Shown here in pieces: positions 7,132 through 15,096 of a stretch of DNA of 64,000 nucleotides (its first letter is position 1; each line of letters opens with the position of its first letter). The DNA is from Microtetraspora sp. NBRC 16547 (GTDB lineage Bacteria; Actinomycetota; Actinomycetes; Streptosporangiales; Streptosporangiaceae): contig NZ_BSSE01000032.1 in the NCBI RefSeq assembly GCF_030268965.1, positions 1 through 64,000 of the forward strand, read 5' to 3'. The position numbers and the translations under genes were made by a program. The notes below the pieces were generated by a model, which worked only from the letters and a program-made list of their open reading frames with translations, ran no database searches and had not been told where the DNA came from.

Positions 7132-8688
7132 TCACTTCCGGAGGAAGACGGTCCTGCTCGACCTGCCGGGATAGACGAGGACCAGATGTTCCTCGACCGG
7201 CAGCTTGGACGCGTACGTCGCGGCTTCCTCCTGGTTGCGCACATAGATACGGATGCGGTAACGGCCGGGGCCGGAGGCGGCGAGGTTGGGCAGAGGCTCA
7301 CCTGTCTCCCACGACGTGAGCCCGAGCCTGCCGGACGGGGTGTCGACTCCGGTCTCGACGACCGTGTCCCAGCCCTTCAGCCGTACGCGGGGAGCATGGC
7401 GCAGCACCTTGACCGTCAGGCAGACGTGATAGTTCTCCACCGCCGTGGCGACCGAGGCCCTGTGGGCGGACAGGTCCCAGAGGATCGCGTCGAACGCCTT
7501 GTTCAGGGGGCGGGACGCCTCGTCCTCACCCTCGCTGTCACCGTCCTCGATGAAGTAGCCGCCGCCCTCGCCGACGAACAGGGCGGTGGTCGCCTGCCGC
7601 ACGGCCCGCAGCCGCCGCGCCGGGTCCGCGCAGTGCGAGGTCATCTTCGCCTGATACAGCTCTTCCTTCCGCTGCGACTCGGCTTCTGAGAGCACCAGGT
7701 CCGGCCACGTACGCGCGACCGCGTCGGGGCAGAGGAAGACCAGCGCCCTCATGAGCGCGTAACTCCAGCCGTAGTCGGCGCCGACCTGGTCAAGCAGCGT
7801 GCGGACGCGGGGCTCGGTGGAGGGCCGTCCGGCCACGCCGCAGAGGGCCCGGCCGAACATGAGCAGTTCCCGGTCGGGGAGCGTCACGAGCCGCGAGGCG
7901 TAGCCGCCGACGTCCCTGGCGAGGCAGAGGAAGGCGAGCTCGCGGTTCCCAGGCGCGGTGTCGCCGTAGGAGCGGTGGATAACGGTCCAGGGACCGCAGT
8001 TCGCCTCTTCTGTGTACCCGTCTCCGTCCCCTGGCAAGGCGGAGTCCCAGGACAGGTCCGCATCGAGTTCCCCCATGTAATAGCCGCTGTCGAAGCCAAT
8101 GGATCGCGCCGCGACATCAGCCCCGGTGAAGCGGTGGTCCGGTCCCTGGTCCACCCCGATCAGGCCGAGCAGGAGGCAGCACACCACGACGGCCCCTGCC
8201 GTACGGCGCAGCCGGATCCGGCGCGGAGAGGCGGGGCCGGCGGGCCGTACGGCGAGCAGGATGAAGATCGCGCAGGTCATCTGATAGGCGCCCATGCCGA
8301 GGTCCCAGCCTGCCGTCGGCTGCCAGGTCTCCCAGCATGCGGAGCCGACCGTGAAGAGGTCGTACGCGATGAGCGCCGGTTCGAGAAGGGCCGGGAGCAG
8401 TACGTACGCCGCGATGGCGCGGGCCGCGACACGGCTCGGCCGTCCTCCGCGAGTGACCAGCCAGAACGCGAAGGCGAGCGGGACGGCGACGAAGTCCCAC
8501 CCCAGGAGCGTAGTCACGATCGACGACGAGTAGATCTCGGTCTGGAACTCGAAGGCCGGACAGGTGGGCGGGTTGACCAGCCCGAAACTGAAGGCCAGCA
8601 CCGAGTCGGGGAGTACCCACAGCGCCAGGGGCAGCAGCGTCATCACGGTCGCGACCGCCCAGAGCCGGAACCCGCGTGACCGCCACAT
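7132..8688 (-). CDS. Hypothetical multi-pass membrane protein with large extracytoplasmic domain
   Basis: The 518-residue product begins MWRSRGFRLWAVATV. GAGGAG lies 9 nt upstream, which favours this ATG over one 13 codons earlier. Five hydrophobic segments occupy roughly residues 7-190 (for example TLLPLALWVL, FVAVPLAFAFWLV, AAYVLLPALL, TCAIFILLAV, AGAVVVCCLLLGLIGV). The remaining 320 residues are soluble, Cys-containing, and end in a beta-rich region (RYRIRIYVRNQEE, HLVLVYPG). The soluble part is probably outside the membrane, although the topology is not certain. I know no function. It is monocistronic and its neighbours give no clue. Confidence 0.7.
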   Translation of the reverse strand: MWRSRGFRLWAVATVMTLLPLALWVLPDSVLAFSFGLVNPPTCPAFEFQTEIYSSSIVTTLLGWDFVAVPLAFAFWLVTRGGRPSRVAARAIAAYVLLPALLEPALIAYDLFTVGSACWETWQPTAGWDLGMGAYQMTCAIFILLAVRPAGPASPRRIRLRRTAGAVVVCCLLLGLIGVDQGPDHRFTGADVAARSIGFDSGYYMGELDADLSWDSALPGDGDGYTEEANCGPWTVIHRSYGDTAPGNRELAFLCLARDVGGYASRLVTLPDRELLMFGRALCGVAGRPSTEPRVRTLLDQVGADYGWSYALMRALVFLCPDAVARTWPDLVLSEAESQRKEELYQAKMTSHCADPARRLRAVRQATTALFVGEGGGYFIEDGDSEGEDEASRPLNKAFDAILWDLSAHRASVATAVENYHVCLTVKVLRHAPRVRLKGWDTVVETGVDTPSGRLGLTSWETGEPLPNLAASGPGRYRIRIYVRNQEEAATYASKLPVEEHLVLVYPGRSSRTVFLRK

Positions 8689-8911
8689 GTGAAGCCGACT
8701 CCTCACTGCCCAACAGACCAGAGGCACCCTATCCGCAAAAGATCAAAATGTACCGGCGAGCGACGACTGGCCTCCGGCGATCTCGTTCCCCTTGGCGTAC
8801 GGCACGTACGACGGGCAAGCGGGCGCGACGAGCTGGCAGTCCGGGACCCGATGCGCGCCGCCTGCGGCACATGGTGTACCGCCCCAGGAGTGGCTGATTC
8901 GGCGAGCAACC

Positions 8912-9019
8912 GTTCAGGTGTTGCGGAATGGGGTGGCGGTGTTGCGGCGTCAGGTCGCCCGTCCGGAGCCGGATTGGGCCGATCGGGCGTTGCTGGCCGC
9001 GCCGGCCCGGTTGCCGCGA
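8912..9019 (+). pseudogene. Integrase-core transposase N-terminal remnant
   Basis: The frame reads VLRNGVAVLRRQVARPEPDW, then ADRALLAAPARLPR. This resembles the start of actinobacterial IS3/rve-type transposases (LRHEVAVLRRQ, WADRALLAALARLLPR). No catalytic DDE core follows. The 480-nt gap between the membrane-protein start and the methyltransferase start holds nothing else I can support. Confidence 0.5.
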
Positions 9020-9168
9020 CGGTGCTGCGCGCGCTGTGCCCTGCAGGCTTCGCGGGGGGAGGCGAAATCTGCGCGTTTCAGCCGACTCGAGAGCCTTAGG
9101 ATGACCCGCCGAACGTCGGCGGACCCGGCTCTGCCGGAGACCTCGCCAACTCATGGAATGAGACTGAT

Positions 9169-10014
9169 ATGCCTGACGGATGGCAGTGGGACAGCTCGCT
9201 ATTCCGGGGAAGCGCAGCCTACTACGAGCGCGGCCGGCTGCCGTACGCTTCGGGCTTCGCCGAAACACTGGCCAAGACCCTCAACCTGGACGGCCGGGGC
9301 CGATTCCTCGACGTCGGCTGCGGTCCGGGCACCGTGACGCTCGCCCTGGCTCGGTTCTTCACTGAGGTGGTCGGCATTGACCCGGACGAAGACATGCTGG
9401 CCGAGGCCGAGCGACAGGCCGAGCGTCGCGGAGTGACCAATGCGCATTGGGGGGCTGCCCGCGCTGAGGACCTGCCGGCCGGTCTGGGTGAGTTCCGGGT
9501 CGTACTGTTCGCCCAGTCGTTCCACTGGACGGACCGGGATCGTGTCGCCGCGACCGTGCTGGAGATGCTGGAACCGGGAGGCGCGTTCGTCCATATGAGC
9601 GACCTCAAGAACCCGCCCGCCGAACCGACACCGCTGCCGCATCCCGCTCCACCGGACGCGCAGATCCGCGAGCTGGTGCAACGGTACCTGGGCCCGGTAC
9701 GCCGTGCTGGGCAGGGAACGCTCGTGAATGGCACGCCGAACCGGGAGGACCTCGTTCTGGCACGCGCCGGGTTCGAGAACTTCGAACGACATGTGGTGCC
9801 GGCCGGGCAGGTAGTCAACCGCACCGCGGACGACATCGTGGCGTGGGTGTTCTCCCACTCGTACTCCGCCCCTCATCTGTTCGGCGACCGGCTGGAAGAC
9901 TTCGAACGGGACCTGCGGGCGGTGCTGCGGCAAGCCTCACCGGACAGTCTCTTCGCCGAGCATCTTCCACCGAGCGAGATCATGACCTGGCGCAAACCGC
10001 ATGGTGGGCGGTGA
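9169..10014 (+). CDS. Class I SAM-dependent methyltransferase
   Basis: The 281-residue protein has a Methyltransf_11/25-type Rossmann fold. Motif I is FLDVGCGPGTVTLAL (about residues 46-60), motif II an acidic loop VVGIDPDEDMLAEAE, then AARAEDLP and VVLFAQSFHWTDRDRVAATV. The post-core region (LGPVRRAGQGTLVNGTPNRED onward) resembles small-molecule methyltransferases that act on hydrophobic substrates. The substrate cannot be predicted. The gene stands alone, flanked upstream by transposase debris and downstream by a convergent amidase gene. Confidence 0.85.
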   Translation: MPDGWQWDSSLFRGSAAYYERGRLPYASGFAETLAKTLNLDGRGRFLDVGCGPGTVTLALARFFTEVVGIDPDEDMLAEAERQAERRGVTNAHWGAARAEDLPAGLGEFRVVLFAQSFHWTDRDRVAATVLEMLEPGGAFVHMSDLKNPPAEPTPLPHPAPPDAQIRELVQRYLGPVRRAGQGTLVNGTPNREDLVLARAGFENFERHVVPAGQVVNRTADDIVAWVFSHSYSAPHLFGDRLEDFERDLRAVLRQASPDSLFAEHLPPSEIMTWRKPHGGR

Positions 10015-10187
10015 CGGCAACGTGGCGGCGGCCCACCAGGATCGCGGTGGGTTCCGCGCCGTCAGGGGGATGGCGTCCGGTTCGGGATTCAGCACTGCCA
10101 AAGGAAGCGGCCCTCCAGCTCGTCTGTGCTGAGGAACCCGTAACCCACGCCGCCGCCGAAGTTACGAGACGGCACACGAGACAAGAG

Positions 10188-10213
10188 GGAGCCGGGGCGG
10201 ATGCCCCGGCTCC
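10188..10213. terminator. GC-rich hairpin between methyltransferase and amidase genes
   Basis: An 11-bp perfect stem, GGAGCCGGGGC at 10188-10198 and its complement at 10203-10213, closes a GGAT tetraloop. It lies between two convergent genes and probably serves as terminator for the minus-strand amidase and possibly for both. Confidence 0.7.
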
Positions 10214-10271
10214 CCGGCTGGTTCTCCGGCGCTCCGTCAGGTGGCGGAGACCGCGGATCCGACGGTGGCCG

Positions 10272-12203
10272 TCAGGTGGCGGACACCACGACGTCGTCGG
10301 CCTTGACGAACATCACGCGGTGGCCGAACTGGATCTGGTAGTACTTCAGGTTCCCGCGGACCACCGTGTGCCGGGACGGGTCCAACGTCACCGCCTGGTA
10401 GTACTCACCCACCGCGGTCAGGCCGACGGTGTAGCGCTGACCCGCGGGGAAGGTGTACTGCAGCGGGGAGATCGCCTGGTACGGCACGTCCGCCGGGTAG
10501 GCCTCCGCCTCCGGATACGCCCTGCCGTACACCGGGACGCTCGCCAGGCCCGGCTTGGGCGTCACCACCAGGCCCTTGGAGGGCACCGCGGTGGGCTGGG
10601 AGGCGGGGTTGTGGAACCACGCCTTCTGGCCGAGGTACCAGATCGCCGTCCAGTCGCCCTGACGGTCGGCCACGGCGTAGCGCTGGCCGGTGACGGCGCG
10701 GGCGCTGTGGTCGTAGACGCTGTAGAGCGAGTCGCCGGTCGGGTGCTTGCCGATGTCCTTGACCAGCGGGGCGTCCTCACGCGGCTCGGTGCGCAGCCAG
10801 ATCGATGCGGAGCCGTGCGGCAGGCAGGCGGCCTCGGGGTCATCCTTGTCGCAGCCGTAGTAGTACGGCTGGTTCTTGTCGTAGTCGGGAAGGATCATCA
10901 CCGACTCGGTGGTCGGGCCGCCGGTGCCGTGCAGCGGGTGGCCGAGAAGCTGGAAGTAGTGCGCCCAGTCCCAGAAGGGGCCCGGGTCCTCGTGCATGCC
11001 CCGCACGGTGGACGCGATCGTGCCGGGCACGTTGTCGTGACCGATGATGTGCGCCCGGTCGAGCGGGACGCCGTAGCGCTTGGCCAGGTAGCGCACCAGC
11101 TTGGCCGAGGTACGGTACATCGCCTCGGTGTACCAGGCGCCGCCCGTGCGCAGGAAGCCCTCGTGCTCCAGGCCGATCGACTTGGCGTTGACGTACCAGT
11201 TGCCCGCCTGCCAGGCGACGTCCTTGGTCTTGACGTGCTGGGCGATGTGCCCGTCGACGGAACGCAGTGAGTAGTGCCAGCTCGCGGCGCGCTCGGGGTT
11301 CTGCACCAGGTTCACGGAGGGGCCGAAGTAGCCCTCCATGTCGTGGATGACGATGTACTCGATCTGCTGGTTGACCGGCCGGTTCGACAGGTCGTGGTTG
11401 CCGTAGCTCCCGTTCGGCAGGGCCTGGTAGGGCGCGGGGATCCACTCGCACGAGATCGTGGGCGGGCACTCGACGCCGTCGCGGACGGGCCGGCGCAGGC
11501 CGAGCTTGTCCAGCCAGCTGTCCATCTTCCGCAGACCGGGCGCCGCCTTCAGCGCGACCTTCTGGCCGTCGTCGGTGACCCGCTCGGCGCCGGTCTCGAT
11601 TGTGGCGTAGACCTCGTCGGCGAAGAACTTCGCGGCGTCGGCCTCGGTGGCGCCCGAGTAGCGGGCCACCGCGCCGTACCACTGGCCCGGGTCGTCGCTG
11701 AGCGGCGCGCCGAGCTGCTTCTGGTAGTCGGCCAGCAGGGCCGCGCCGCCGCGGATGTTCGCGGCCGGGTCGGCGCGCAGCTCATCGCGGCTCGCGCCGG
11801 TGAGCTCGGCCGCCTTCTCCAGCGTCCTGAGCGACACGGGGATCTCGGCGGGCGCCGGGATCTCCTCGGGGGCCGGAAGGGGGCGGCTGTCGTCGCCGCG
11901 GGGGTCCTCGACACCGTCGACGTGGTGGTTCTCGGTCGTCAGCACGGCGGCGTCGGTGAGGTGCATCGGGCCGTAGCCCGCGGAGTTGCTCGGCAGGCCC
12001 GCGTTGGCGTCCCAGCGTGACTCCAGGTAGGACACGCCGAGCAGGACGCTCGCGGGCACGTTGTAGGCCTTGGCGGCCTCGGCGAAGGCGGCCTGCCGTT
12101 CGCCGGGAGCGGCCTGGGCCGCCGAGGCGGGTTGGGGGAGGGAGAGGCCGCCGACGGCCACGATGGCCGCGGCCGCCAGGCGGAGGGGGGACGATCGTCG
12201 CAC
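10272..12203 (-). CDS. Exported peptidoglycan hydrolase: lysozyme-like domain plus N-acetylmuramoyl-L-alanine amidase
   Basis: The 643-residue product starts at GTG, 5 nt after GAGGAG, and opens with a signal peptide (VRRSSPLRLAAAAIVAVGG, then ASAAQA). A lysozyme/transglycosylase-like helical domain follows (AFAEAAKAYNVPASVLLGVSYLES, GYGPMHLTDAA, NIRGGAALLADYQ). An Amidase_2/PGRP domain then carries zinc-ligand candidates H287 in YIVIHDMEG, SWHYSLRS, and the His of IIGHDNVPG, with GLEHEG nearby. The last 200 residues are beta-rich and SH3-like (AIWYLGQKAWFHNP), suggesting wall binding. It probably cleaves the N-acetylmuramate-L-alanine bond during wall turnover. It is monocistronic. Confidence 0.85.
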   Translation of the reverse strand: MRRSSPLRLAAAAIVAVGGLSLPQPASAAQAAPGERQAAFAEAAKAYNVPASVLLGVSYLESRWDANAGLPSNSAGYGPMHLTDAAVLTTENHHVDGVEDPRGDDSRPLPAPEEIPAPAEIPVSLRTLEKAAELTGASRDELRADPAANIRGGAALLADYQKQLGAPLSDDPGQWYGAVARYSGATEADAAKFFADEVYATIETGAERVTDDGQKVALKAAPGLRKMDSWLDKLGLRRPVRDGVECPPTISCEWIPAPYQALPNGSYGNHDLSNRPVNQQIEYIVIHDMEGYFGPSVNLVQNPERAASWHYSLRSVDGHIAQHVKTKDVAWQAGNWYVNAKSIGLEHEGFLRTGGAWYTEAMYRTSAKLVRYLAKRYGVPLDRAHIIGHDNVPGTIASTVRGMHEDPGPFWDWAHYFQLLGHPLHGTGGPTTESVMILPDYDKNQPYYYGCDKDDPEAACLPHGSASIWLRTEPREDAPLVKDIGKHPTGDSLYSVYDHSARAVTGQRYAVADRQGDWTAIWYLGQKAWFHNPASQPTAVPSKGLVVTPKPGLASVPVYGRAYPEAEAYPADVPYQAISPLQYTFPAGQRYTVGLTAVGEYYQAVTLDPSRHTVVRGNLKYYQIQFGHRVMFVKADDVVVSAT

Positions 12204-12792: not shown

Positions 12793-13746
12793 TTAGGGCA
12801 GCCGGTCCAGAGCCTGTTGGAAGGCGCGGGCGTGTCCGGCCTCGTCCTTGGCGTTGTGCGCGAAGAGCTTGGCCGCCTCGGTGTCGCCTGCCTCCTTGGC
12901 GCGTTTGGCGAAGGTCGGGTACATGGTCTGGGATTCGTAGCGCTCGCCGGCGATGGCTTTGGCCAGGTTGGCGCTTGTGGTTCCGACGAGCCCGGCGAGC
13001 TTCGCCTCGTCGGCGAAGTGTTCGCGCCTTTCCACTGCGGCGTCGCCCCGGAACAGGCTGGCCACAGCGGGGTTCTTGGCGTGCTCGGCGTACAGCCGGT
13101 ACTTGGCGTATGCGAGTGCTTCTCCGTGCATGGCCGTGTCCAAATTCTTCACGGTGCGCTGTGCCCGGACCTTGGCCGGGTCAGCCGGGACCTGCACGAC
13201 TTCGACCTTTGGCGGTGCGGGGACGTTGCCCTGGCCGGACTCGACGGCCTGCAGTGCGGCGCCGAACGCTCGCGCGTGTGCCCCTTCGTCACGGGCGATC
13301 TCCGAGAAGCGGTCGGCCGCCTCGCTCTCGCCGTCGGCCTTGGCCTGTTGGGCGAACTGGGGATACATCTCTGTGGACTCGTGCACCTCGCCTTTCATCG
13401 CGTCGCGGAGATTGGCGGCGTCGTCGCCTACCAGGCCGCTCAGCGCGGCCTCCTCCTCGAAATGCTCTCCTAGCTCGACGTTGGCTGTGCGTTCGAACAG
13501 GCGGGCGACCGAGGGCAGGCCCTCCCGCTGGGCCTGCTCGGCGTAGAGGCGGTAGGAGGCGTCGGCGAACGCCTCACCCCGCATCGACTGCGTCAGGTCG
13601 GCACGGGTTTGCGGGCTCGGCACATTGGGCGTGTCGGAGGACGGTCCCGCCGATGCGGCTGACGCGGCGAACGCGCAGCCCATGGGCGCGCTCAATGCGA
13701 GCGTGAACGCTCCGGTCACCAGTGCGCGTGCTGAGAAGCGGATCAT
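12793..13746 (-). CDS. Exported tandem ferritin-like (rubrerythrin-type) protein
   Basis: The 317-residue product has a signal peptide (MIRFSARALVTGAFTLALSA, then AFAASA). Two homologous ferritin-like domains of about 125 residues follow, joined by a Pro/Val linker. Each repeat carries the diiron signature in order. Domain 1 has RGEAFADASYRLYAEQA, ELGEHFEEEA, KGEVHESTEMYPQFA and ARDEGAHARAFGAAL. Domain 2 has HGEALAYAKYRLYAEHA, ERREHFADEA, AGERYESQTMYPTFA and AKDEAGHARAFQQAL. Rubrerythrins are usually cytoplasmic, single four-helix domains with a rubredoxin tail; this one is exported, duplicated and lacks rubredoxin cysteines. A peroxide-scavenging or iron-handling role outside the membrane is an inference. 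Confidence 0.85.
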   Translation of the reverse strand: MIRFSARALVTGAFTLALSAPMGCAFAASAASAGPSSDTPNVPSPQTRADLTQSMRGEAFADASYRLYAEQAQREGLPSVARLFERTANVELGEHFEEEAALSGLVGDDAANLRDAMKGEVHESTEMYPQFAQQAKADGESEAADRFSEIARDEGAHARAFGAALQAVESGQGNVPAPPKVEVVQVPADPAKVRAQRTVKNLDTAMHGEALAYAKYRLYAEHAKNPAVASLFRGDAAVERREHFADEAKLAGLVGTTSANLAKAIAGERYESQTMYPTFAKRAKEAGDTEAAKLFAHNAKDEAGHARAFQQALDRLP

Positions 13747-13977
13747 GCCTCGACCTCCTCCGTCGTGTGTGGACCCGACGGCCGTCTTTAGGTCGCTTAC
13801 CTGGAGAAGCGACCGATAACAGGTCTTCCCGGCAAGCTGCCTGATGCTGAGAGGACCTTTGCGCGGCTATGCCACGCGCAGGCTGGGCCGCCGGGGTGCT
13901 CGCCGCTGGACGGCGGGGCCTGTCGAGCCCAGCCACCTGCCGGGACCACGCCGCAGGGCCGGGTGTAAGTAGGAAGT

Positions 13978-15096
13978 ATGCGCCCGCAGCGGCTGTTACC
14001 GCACCGGCATCGCTCGTGGCAGGCCAGTGACGCCCTGCTGGCGTTCCCGCTCGGCCTGATCGCGGTCATCGTGGGGGTCGATCTGCTGACCCCCATCGGG
14101 ATTCCGCTGGGCCCGCTGCTGGTCGTGGCGCCCGCGATCACCGCGTCGTTCGCCGGCGCCTTCGCCACCGCGATGGTCGCCGCGATCGCCGTCGTGGGCC
14201 TGGTGGCCGTCGGCGTGATCCTGGACCAGGGCCTGTTGAGCACGATGTACTTCCAGTCGCAGATCATCTCGTTGGTGGTGGTCTCGGTGGTCGTGACGGC
14301 GTTCCGGTACCTGCGGGAGCGGCACACCGAAGAACTGGCGCAGGTGCGCGCTGTGTCGGAGGCCGCGCAGCGGGTGGTGCTCAGGCCGTTGCCGCAGCGG
14401 CTCGGGCCGCTGCGGGTGGCGTCGGTGTATCTGGCGGCGCAGGAACAGGCGCAGATCGGCGGCGACCTGTACGCGGCCACACGAACGGCCGACGCCACCA
14501 GGCTGATCGTCGGCGACGTGATGGGCAAGGGCCTGACCGCCATCAGCGACGCCGCCCTGCTGCTCTGCGCCTTCCGCGAGGCCGCCCACCGCCAGGCCGA
14601 TCTGCCCGATCTCGTCACCTATCTGGACCACAGCGTCTGCTGGAACCTGGCCGAATCCTCGGAACCGGAGAAGGCCGGGGAGTGCTTCATCACCGCCGTG
14701 GTCATCGACATCCCGGACGCGTCGCGGCGGATGCGCATGGTGACCTGCGGGCACCCGCCTCCCCTGCTGCTGCGCGGCAGACAGGTCATCACGCTTCATC
14801 CCACGCGTCCCGCACCGCCGCTGGGCCTGGGCGAGCTGGCCGACCCGGACTACCGTGCGGACACGTTCACGTTCGAACCCGGCGACCTGCTCCTGCTGTA
14901 CACCGACGGCGTCGTGGAAGCCCGGAGTCCCGAGGGCGTCTTCTACCCGCTCGCCGAGCGTGCCGCCTCCTGGGTCGAGGATGAGACCCCCCTGGCGCTC
15001 GTCCACCACCTGCGCGCCGACCTGCTCGCCCACGTCGGCGGGCGCTTGGCCGACGACGCCGCCGTGATCGCCGTCCAGCGCGCCCCCGACTACTGA
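13978..15096 (+). CDS. Membrane-anchored PP2C-family (SpoIIE-type) serine/threonine phosphatase
   Basis: The 372-residue protein has three or four N-terminal hydrophobic segments (LLAFPLGLIAVIVGVDLL, LLVVAPAITASFAGAFATA, VAAIAVVGLVAVGVIL, IISLVVVSVVVTAF). A linker helix and a SpoIIE/PP2C domain follow. The metal-binding motifs are GGDLYAATR and LIVGDVMGKGL, followed by VTCGHPPPLLL, LLLYTDGVVEARS and DDAAVIAV. The membrane half resembles small four-helix sensor regions without a PAS or HAMP domain. Such phosphatases usually act on anti-anti-sigma factors, but no anti-sigma partner is adjacent. It is transcribed alone. Confidence 0.88.
   Translation: MRPQRLLPHRHRSWQASDALLAFPLGLIAVIVGVDLLTPIGIPLGPLLVVAPAITASFAGAFATAMVAAIAVVGLVAVGVILDQGLLSTMYFQSQIISLVVVSVVVTAFRYLRERHTEELAQVRAVSEAAQRVVLRPLPQRLGPLRVASVYLAAQEQAQIGGDLYAATRTADATRLIVGDVMGKGLTAISDAALLLCAFREAAHRQADLPDLVTYLDHSVCWNLAESSEPEKAGECFITAVVIDIPDASRRMRMVTCGHPPPLLLRGRQVITLHPTRPAPPLGLGELADPDYRADTFTFEPGDLLLLYTDGVVEARSPEGVFYPLAERAASWVEDETPLALVHHLRADLLAHVGGRLADDAAVIAVQRAPDY

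Follow-up and report, generated by a model that had tools for sequence, protein, structure and literature searches.

Rubrerythrins are generally regarded as cytosolic enzymes. Their classical representatives, among them those of Desulfovibrio vulgaris and Pyrococcus furiosus, combine a four-helix bundle carrying diiron ligands with a rubredoxin domain. Rubrerythrin-like proteins without rubredoxin are described as widespread in aerobes, and one of them, ferriperoxin from Hydrogenobacter thermophilus, is reported as a proven peroxidase that uses FNR/NADPH to reduce H2O2 as well as organic hydroperoxides and whose disruptant cannot grow aerobically (PMC3317640). Both ferriperoxin and sulerythrin from Sulfolobus tokodaii are single-repeat homodimers with a short B-C loop and an E-x-x-H pair in helix B. 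Sulerythrin is described as forming domain-swapped dimers (PMC12833474), and ferriperoxin was modelled as domain-swapped in a report in which short B-C loops accompany swapping (PMC3317640). In MbfA, a ferritin-like ferroxidase domain, described as cytoplasmic and membrane-anchored, is fused to a VIT-like iron exporter (PMC7762939).

The window analysed here is a 64,000-nucleotide stretch of DNA from the soil-type actinomycete Microtetraspora sp. NBRC 16547, and the gene under study encodes a rubrerythrin-like protein with two repeats. It shares with ferriperoxin and sulerythrin the rubrerythrin fold without rubredoxin, the ligand set, the short B-C loop and, as a prediction in its own case, the domain-swapped arrangement; it differs from them in its predicted export signal, its two repeats per chain, an E-x-x-E-H motif in helix B and its position in a separate clade. 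The four-helix bundle with diiron ligands is also common to classical rubrerythrins, from which the protein is set apart by the missing rubredoxin domain, the predicted export signal and the tandem architecture. Some of its relatives have a VIT gene nearby, which recalls MbfA, but the protein itself is separate, exported by prediction, and has no Pfam match to a VIT domain within its chain. Symerythrin from Cyanophora paradoxa, among the best matches in sequence and fold, differs in having a single repeat.

Gene and family assignment

The open reading frame starts with an ATG at position 13746 of the minus strand and its bounds are exactly 12793-13746. The features of the locus are as follows:

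12793..13746, minus strand: CDS of the tandem rubrerythrin-like protein, exported by prediction, 317 aa plus stop (ORF, Pfam)
13798..13820, minus strand: SigB/SigF-type promoter-like site GTTATCGGTCGCTTCTCCAGGTA (pattern GTT-N13..17-[AG]GGTA)
13754..13761, minus strand: ribosome-binding site GGAGGAGG, ending 7 bases 5' of the ATG (sequence)
13648..13746, minus strand: predicted signal peptide, residues 1 to about 27-33, no lipobox (sequence and home-made feature score, controls included)
13234..13614, minus strand: repeat 1, residues 45-171 (Pfam and alignment)
13462..13476, minus strand: helix-B motif of repeat 1, ELGEH, residues 91-95, E-x-x-H plus one residue (alignment)
13165..13233, minus strand: linker between the repeats, residues 172-194, non-helical in the model (alignment)
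12796..13164, minus strand: repeat 2, residues 195-317 (Pfam and alignment)
13018..13032, minus strand: helix-B motif of repeat 2, ERREH, residues 239-243 (alignment)
13978..15096, plus strand: SpoIIE-type phosphatase, divergent neighbour, given for context only (PF07228, E 5.1e-45)

The PF02915 profile matched the whole protein (E 2.8e-34, 118.9 bits against a cut-off of 22.8) in four stretches spread over both halves, which bears out the tandem duplication proposed in an earlier, sequence-only reading of this gene. In a search of the genome, the same profile matched this gene only. The solved structures matching by sequence were, by name, rubrerythrin, symerythrin, sulerythrin and nigerythrin. 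The score against NF045767, the classical rubrerythrin equivalog, was 113.6 bits, under the NCBIfam cut-off of 200, while PF00210 (ferritin/Dps) scored 16.5 bits, under its cut-off of 24.5; iron storage, one of the roles suggested in the sequence-only reading, is unsupported. That reading was right about rubredoxin, for which profile searches returned no match in the protein or in the whole genome, but it took this absence, together with export and duplication, as a pointer to iron storage, peroxide removal or a different metal role. Forms without rubredoxin being common in aerobes, and FNR serving as donor to the peroxidase ferriperoxin (PMC3317640), the lack of rubredoxin alone does not point to a different role. 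IMG/VR scans confirmed no viral relatives, and the five phage records that matched each covered no more than 80% of the query.

Distribution, phylogeny and gene loss

Among the 341 genomes of the family surveyed, 49 had a match, and 40 of these contained 44 full-length tandem copies (our own count from the table). The tandem set used below (n=48, including the protein from the window) comprises these 44, two proteins from a class-level search (L040 and L041) and two from plasmid records of Streptomyces sp. BHT-5-2 and Mycolicibacterium aubagnense. It was compared with six exported single-repeat forms, five of them alphaproteobacterial, and with 51 classical rubrerythrins retrieved by the same searches. 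The alphaproteobacterial forms are carried on plasmids and have a leader and the same helix-B motif. The gene is absent from the three other genomes of the genus examined, and the full-length tandem form is absent from 301 of the 341 family genomes, indicating that the gene is dispensable.

A tree of individual repeats separated 68 exported rows from 27 classical rows with an SH-aLRT support of 100, a split to be read with the long-branch warnings of a quick tree built on few columns. It shows the exported tandem and single-repeat forms as a clade apart from classical rubrerythrins. First and second repeats fell into nearly clean sets, so one old duplication may lie behind the tandem form.

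Marinitenerispora sediminis (L007, L035 and L095) has a single-repeat exported copy that resembles a contraction of the tandem form. Compared with 12 close tandem proteins, the first half of L007 has a mean identity of 75.3% to first repeats versus 61.6% to second repeats, and its second half 67.4% to second repeats versus 52.5% to first repeats. In trees, the second half sits in the repeat-2 set (support 99; p-AU 0.065 for placement with repeat 1), while the test does not reject a placement of the first half among second repeats (p-AU 0.49).

Four loci hold broken or truncated copies: two frames with sequence missing between them (L146, in genome G917), a second-repeat remnant (L147, in G947), a first-repeat remnant (L148, in G1001) and a copy with its first part on the opposite strand (L149, in G995). 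Judging from these remnants, the gene seems to have been lost repeatedly.

Diiron ligands and a helix-B insertion

The active-site residues reported for sulerythrin are Glu20, Tyr27, Glu53, His56, Glu92, Glu95, Tyr100, Glu126 and His129 (PMC12833474). All nine have aligned counterparts in repeat 1 (E58, Y65, E91, H95, E120, E123, Y128, E154 and H157) and in repeat 2 (E209, Y216, E239, H243, E268, E271, Y276, E302 and H305). The alignment thus shows a full diiron ligand set, glutamates plus two histidines on four helices, in each repeat; we infer the identity of the metal. The Glu/His ligands expected in the sequence-only reading are present, with one departure in spacing: in both repeats, the helix-B pair has the form E-x-x-E-H, which adds a residue to the usual E-x-x-H (the Glu53/His56 spacing of sulerythrin).

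At helix B, E-x-x-[E/D]-H is found in 44 of the 48 first repeats and 47 of the 48 second repeats of the tandem set and in all six exported single-repeat forms, versus none of the 51 classical single-repeat sequences; the string E-x-x-E-H does occur in three of the latter, but in helix C. One-residue insertions often create pi-bulges, and peroxidase chemistry could be modified or even lost through the change in helix B. Symerythrin carries an additional glutamate in helix A, three residues beyond the first; the corresponding position is alanine in our protein (A61, invariant in the alignment).

All 18 core ligands are retained in 40 of the 48 aligned tandem proteins; the other eight (L031, L032, L033, L034, L041, L064, L097 and L098) have lost one or more of them. 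The active-site tyrosines are kept in 46-48 of the 48. Sulerythrin Glu95 is reported to contact the dioxygen ligand (PMC12833474), and its helix-C equivalent is retained in 44 and 43 of the 48 proteins in the two repeats. In L031 and L032, from one genus, ligand loss is confined to helices B1, C2 and D2, with A2, B2, C1 and D1 intact; each chain may possibly combine one dead and one live site.

Predicted fold and interlocking of the repeats

The full-length mature protein was modelled as a monomer with AlphaFold2 from an alignment of six sequences: the protein itself, L006 from Sphaerisporangium melleum and L007-L010, the last four being single-repeat sequences aligned to repeat 1 only. The model (pLDDT 95.8, pTM 0.91) has eight helices and B-C loops of five residues. 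Its residues 3..280 superpose on residues 1..143 of one D. vulgaris rubrerythrin chain (1b71), with 130 residues aligned at an rmsd of 1.3 Å and a Z of 21.0 (VIA-align), so that one compact bundle uses both ends of the polypeptide. When a single repeat is modelled alone, it aligns with sulerythrin (1j30) over 130 residues (rmsd 1.5, Z 15.3), and its match to 1b71 spans only 70 residues. Together with the short B-C loops, these alignment ranges make an intramolecular swap the simplest reading. In this model, the repeats do not appear to form domains of their own: helices A-B of one would pack with helices C-D of the other. Of the two complete ferritin-like domains seen in the sequence-only reading, the duplication stands, while their independence does not fit the predicted cross-repeat packing. 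Judged from alignment ranges and lengths, the protein would be a fused swapped dimer with a 23-residue linker, its two bundles consisting of A1B1 with C2D2 and A2B2 with C1D1.

Joint ligand loss was considered as proof of the swap and set aside. The losses in L031 and L032 (B1, C2 and D2) belong to one site if the repeats are swapped and to two sites otherwise, but all three would fall in one swapped site by chance in 8 of 56 draws (hand count), which makes them suggestive only. The losses in L033, L034, L041, L064, L097 and L098 do not discriminate between swapped and unswapped pairing. The single-repeat Marinitenerispora copy L007 was likewise discarded as support, since any unequal crossover between repeats gives the same pattern and the copy is uninformative on pairing.

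Predicted export signal and promoter-like motif

At the N-terminus, a basic start is combined with a hydrophobic stretch and Ala-x-Ala sites, the cleavage options being AFA, ASA and ASA. These features agree with the signal peptide proposed earlier, and the protein is predicted to be exported. They were scored by a home-made measure, distinct from SignalP, that combines a hydrophobic stretch, a basic residue before it and Ala-x-Ala after it. With this score, export features were found in 45 of the 48 tandem proteins (including the one from the window) and in all six exported single-repeat forms, versus none of the 51 classical sequences. Among the three tandem proteins missed, one falls just short of the threshold; in the other two, repeat 1 is preceded by a lengthy low-complexity region that left the leader outside the scored part. 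The Mycolicibacterium form has a lipobox-like VTAC. The cysteine of PMGC in our protein was considered as a lipoprotein signal and rejected, being neither part of a lipobox nor retained in most relatives.

The SigB/SigF consensus is GTTT-N14-16-GGGTA. A loose version, GTT-N13..17-[AG]GGTA, shaped after inspection of close relatives, matched upstream of 16 of the 54 loci, against a mean of 0.42 and a maximum of 2 in 100 shuffles, and a stricter one at 9 of 54 (shuffles: mean 0.18, maximum 2), both counts being inflated by kinship among the loci. The loose motif is missing from the other 38 loci, and all the strict matches come from the more distant group, none from the window. SigR-type sites (GGAAT-N-GTT) were absent from 13 upstream regions.

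Gene neighbourhood and candidate electron donors

Next to the gene, the SpoIIE-type phosphatase is possibly a regulator of a stress sigma factor, and an amidase gene lies 514 bp downstream. No candidate donor gene, either cytochrome b/PepSY or DUF2231, adjoins it. A profile search of the genome gave no match to PF01292 (cytochrome b561), and the two DUF2231 genes of the genome lie elsewhere, one being 34% identical to the DUF2231 protein of locus L071 and the other having no blastp match to it.

Candidate donors accompany several relatives. All six alphaproteobacterial plasmid loci contain PepSY, cytochrome b/b561, response regulator and sensor histidine kinase genes; the PepSY/cytochrome b cassette is adjacent to the rubrerythrin gene in five of them (Methylocapsa, Xanthobacter, Methylovirgula and two Sphingomonas) and 4.9 kb away in Sphingomonas NIC1. 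Pfam confirmed PepSY_2 and cytochrome b561 in Xanthobacter and PepSY_2 in one Methylocapsa, the other loci being assigned by homology. In 5 of the 12 close actinomycete loci (four genomes), a DUF2231 membrane protein is encoded directly downstream on the same strand, with a gap of 21-148 bp; a DUF2231 gene also follows the broken copy L147, and a distant DUF2231 lies near the Mycolicibacterium copy. The assignment comes from a Pfam run on L071 and L065. The statement in the sequence-only reading that there is no redox partner is, given these neighbours, too strong. The DUF2231 proteins beside the gene (L071, L073, L150, L151, L153 and L065) share histidines, for example in G-L-P-x-H-x-L-x-V-H, which might bind haem.

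Across the Streptosporangiaceae, no neighbour cluster was found family-wide in 48 loci (six more were left out because the gene caller had missed the gene), and the pairing with DUF2231 is the sole recurring one, within the close group only. Single-linkage clustering placed SpoIIE-like genes near 6 of the 48 loci, an association that was set aside, as tblastn with the phosphatase from the window recovered only L085, L086, L147 and L162 besides the window itself. In L147, the region at about 8200-10340 holds in succession the remnant of the rubrerythrin gene, DUF2231 and, just after it, a SpoIIE-type phosphatase homologue 52% identical to that of the window, joining two neighbours otherwise seen separately. 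Judged by eye, a gene block beside the tandem rubrerythrin, with Rieske-type genes and others resembling short-chain dehydrogenases, is conserved in six loci of one genus (L155-L160).

Proposed role and alternatives

The retained ligand set and the stress-type promoter motif make peroxide reduction outside the cytoplasm the best-supported role, for which we infer peroxidase activity, electron donor and regulation. The full proposal, to which we give an even chance, is that a fused cross-repeat rubrerythrin with two diiron sites reduces peroxide outside the membrane under general stress, with a membrane electron donor. The protein would be extracytoplasmic and devoid of rubredoxin, its repeats interlocking within one chain; H2O2 (or organic peroxides) would be reduced there within a general stress response of the SigB/SigF type. 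The membrane donor would probably be the nearby cytochrome b561/PepSY pair in the alphaproteobacterial relatives, and the DUF2231 membrane protein is the candidate in the close actinomycete ones.

The main rival is an extracytoplasmic ferroxidase for iron detoxification, which would use H2O2 or O2 to oxidise Fe2+ on its way out of or into the cell. As Fe2+ would itself be the electron source, no protein donor would be needed, in keeping with the lack of an adjoining donor gene. VIT-family (iron transporter) genes occur near the Mycolicibacterium homologue (Pfam VIT1) and in all three Sphingomonas plasmids found, the genome holds three more, all on other contigs, and MbfA is described as combining a ferroxidase domain with a VIT-like transporter (PMC7762939). 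We nevertheless regard this role as rather unlikely: tblastn with two VIT proteins found no VIT gene in the stretches fetched around the other actinomycete copies, and the alphaproteobacterial loci have VIT in three of six cases versus cytochrome b with PepSY in all six. A surface buffer or chaperone for Fe, Mn or Zn, acting without catalysis, would fit the Fe-Zn, diFe, diMn, diCo and diNi forms reported for sulerythrin (PMC12833474; PDB titles) and the P-type ATPase genes near some homologues (annotation; blastp cluster), but metal binding alone would need neither the active-site tyrosines nor the Glu95 equivalent, both largely retained, and we consider it improbable.

The helix-B insertion, nearly constant in the exported forms and absent at that position from classical ones, would be the natural starting point for a different, oxidase- or oxygenase-like diiron chemistry, for example with a glutamate such as E94 replacing the helix-B histidine. 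In the alignments, however, the histidine takes the ligand position, preceded by an insertion of one residue, and the other ligands are all standard, which leaves this chemistry very improbable. Least credible of all is that the N-terminus is not an export signal and that the protein is cytosolic or merely anchored, since the export features persist across a clade of two phyla though the leader sequence differs, and one member has a lipobox-like form.

The protein's parts are known, but no title on an exported or tandem rubrerythrin was found in the open-access literature searched, where the joint occurrence of export, fusion and helix-B insertion appears to be undescribed. A broader picture, which we offer tentatively and with more doubt than belief, is of a partly plasmid-borne clade of extracytoplasmic rubrerythrins in Actinomycetota and Alphaproteobacteria, in which the helix-B insertion modifies the diiron site, cytochrome b561/PepSY or DUF2231 replace rubredoxin, and the swapped dimer of the actinomycetes is fused, with two sites that can decay independently. 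If true, aerobic Gram-positives and alphaproteobacteria would gain a non-haem peroxidase outside the membrane, and DUF2231 would become a testable electron-carrier candidate. The fused swapped dimer would also offer a natural way of testing why domain swapping occurs in ferritin-like proteins, as its single chain allows each of the two sites to be mutated on its own, which is impossible in a homodimer. In the Sphingomonas plasmids L069, L102 and L103, the single-repeat exported rubrerythrin is labelled 'acyl-ACP desaturase', a name that is probably wrong.
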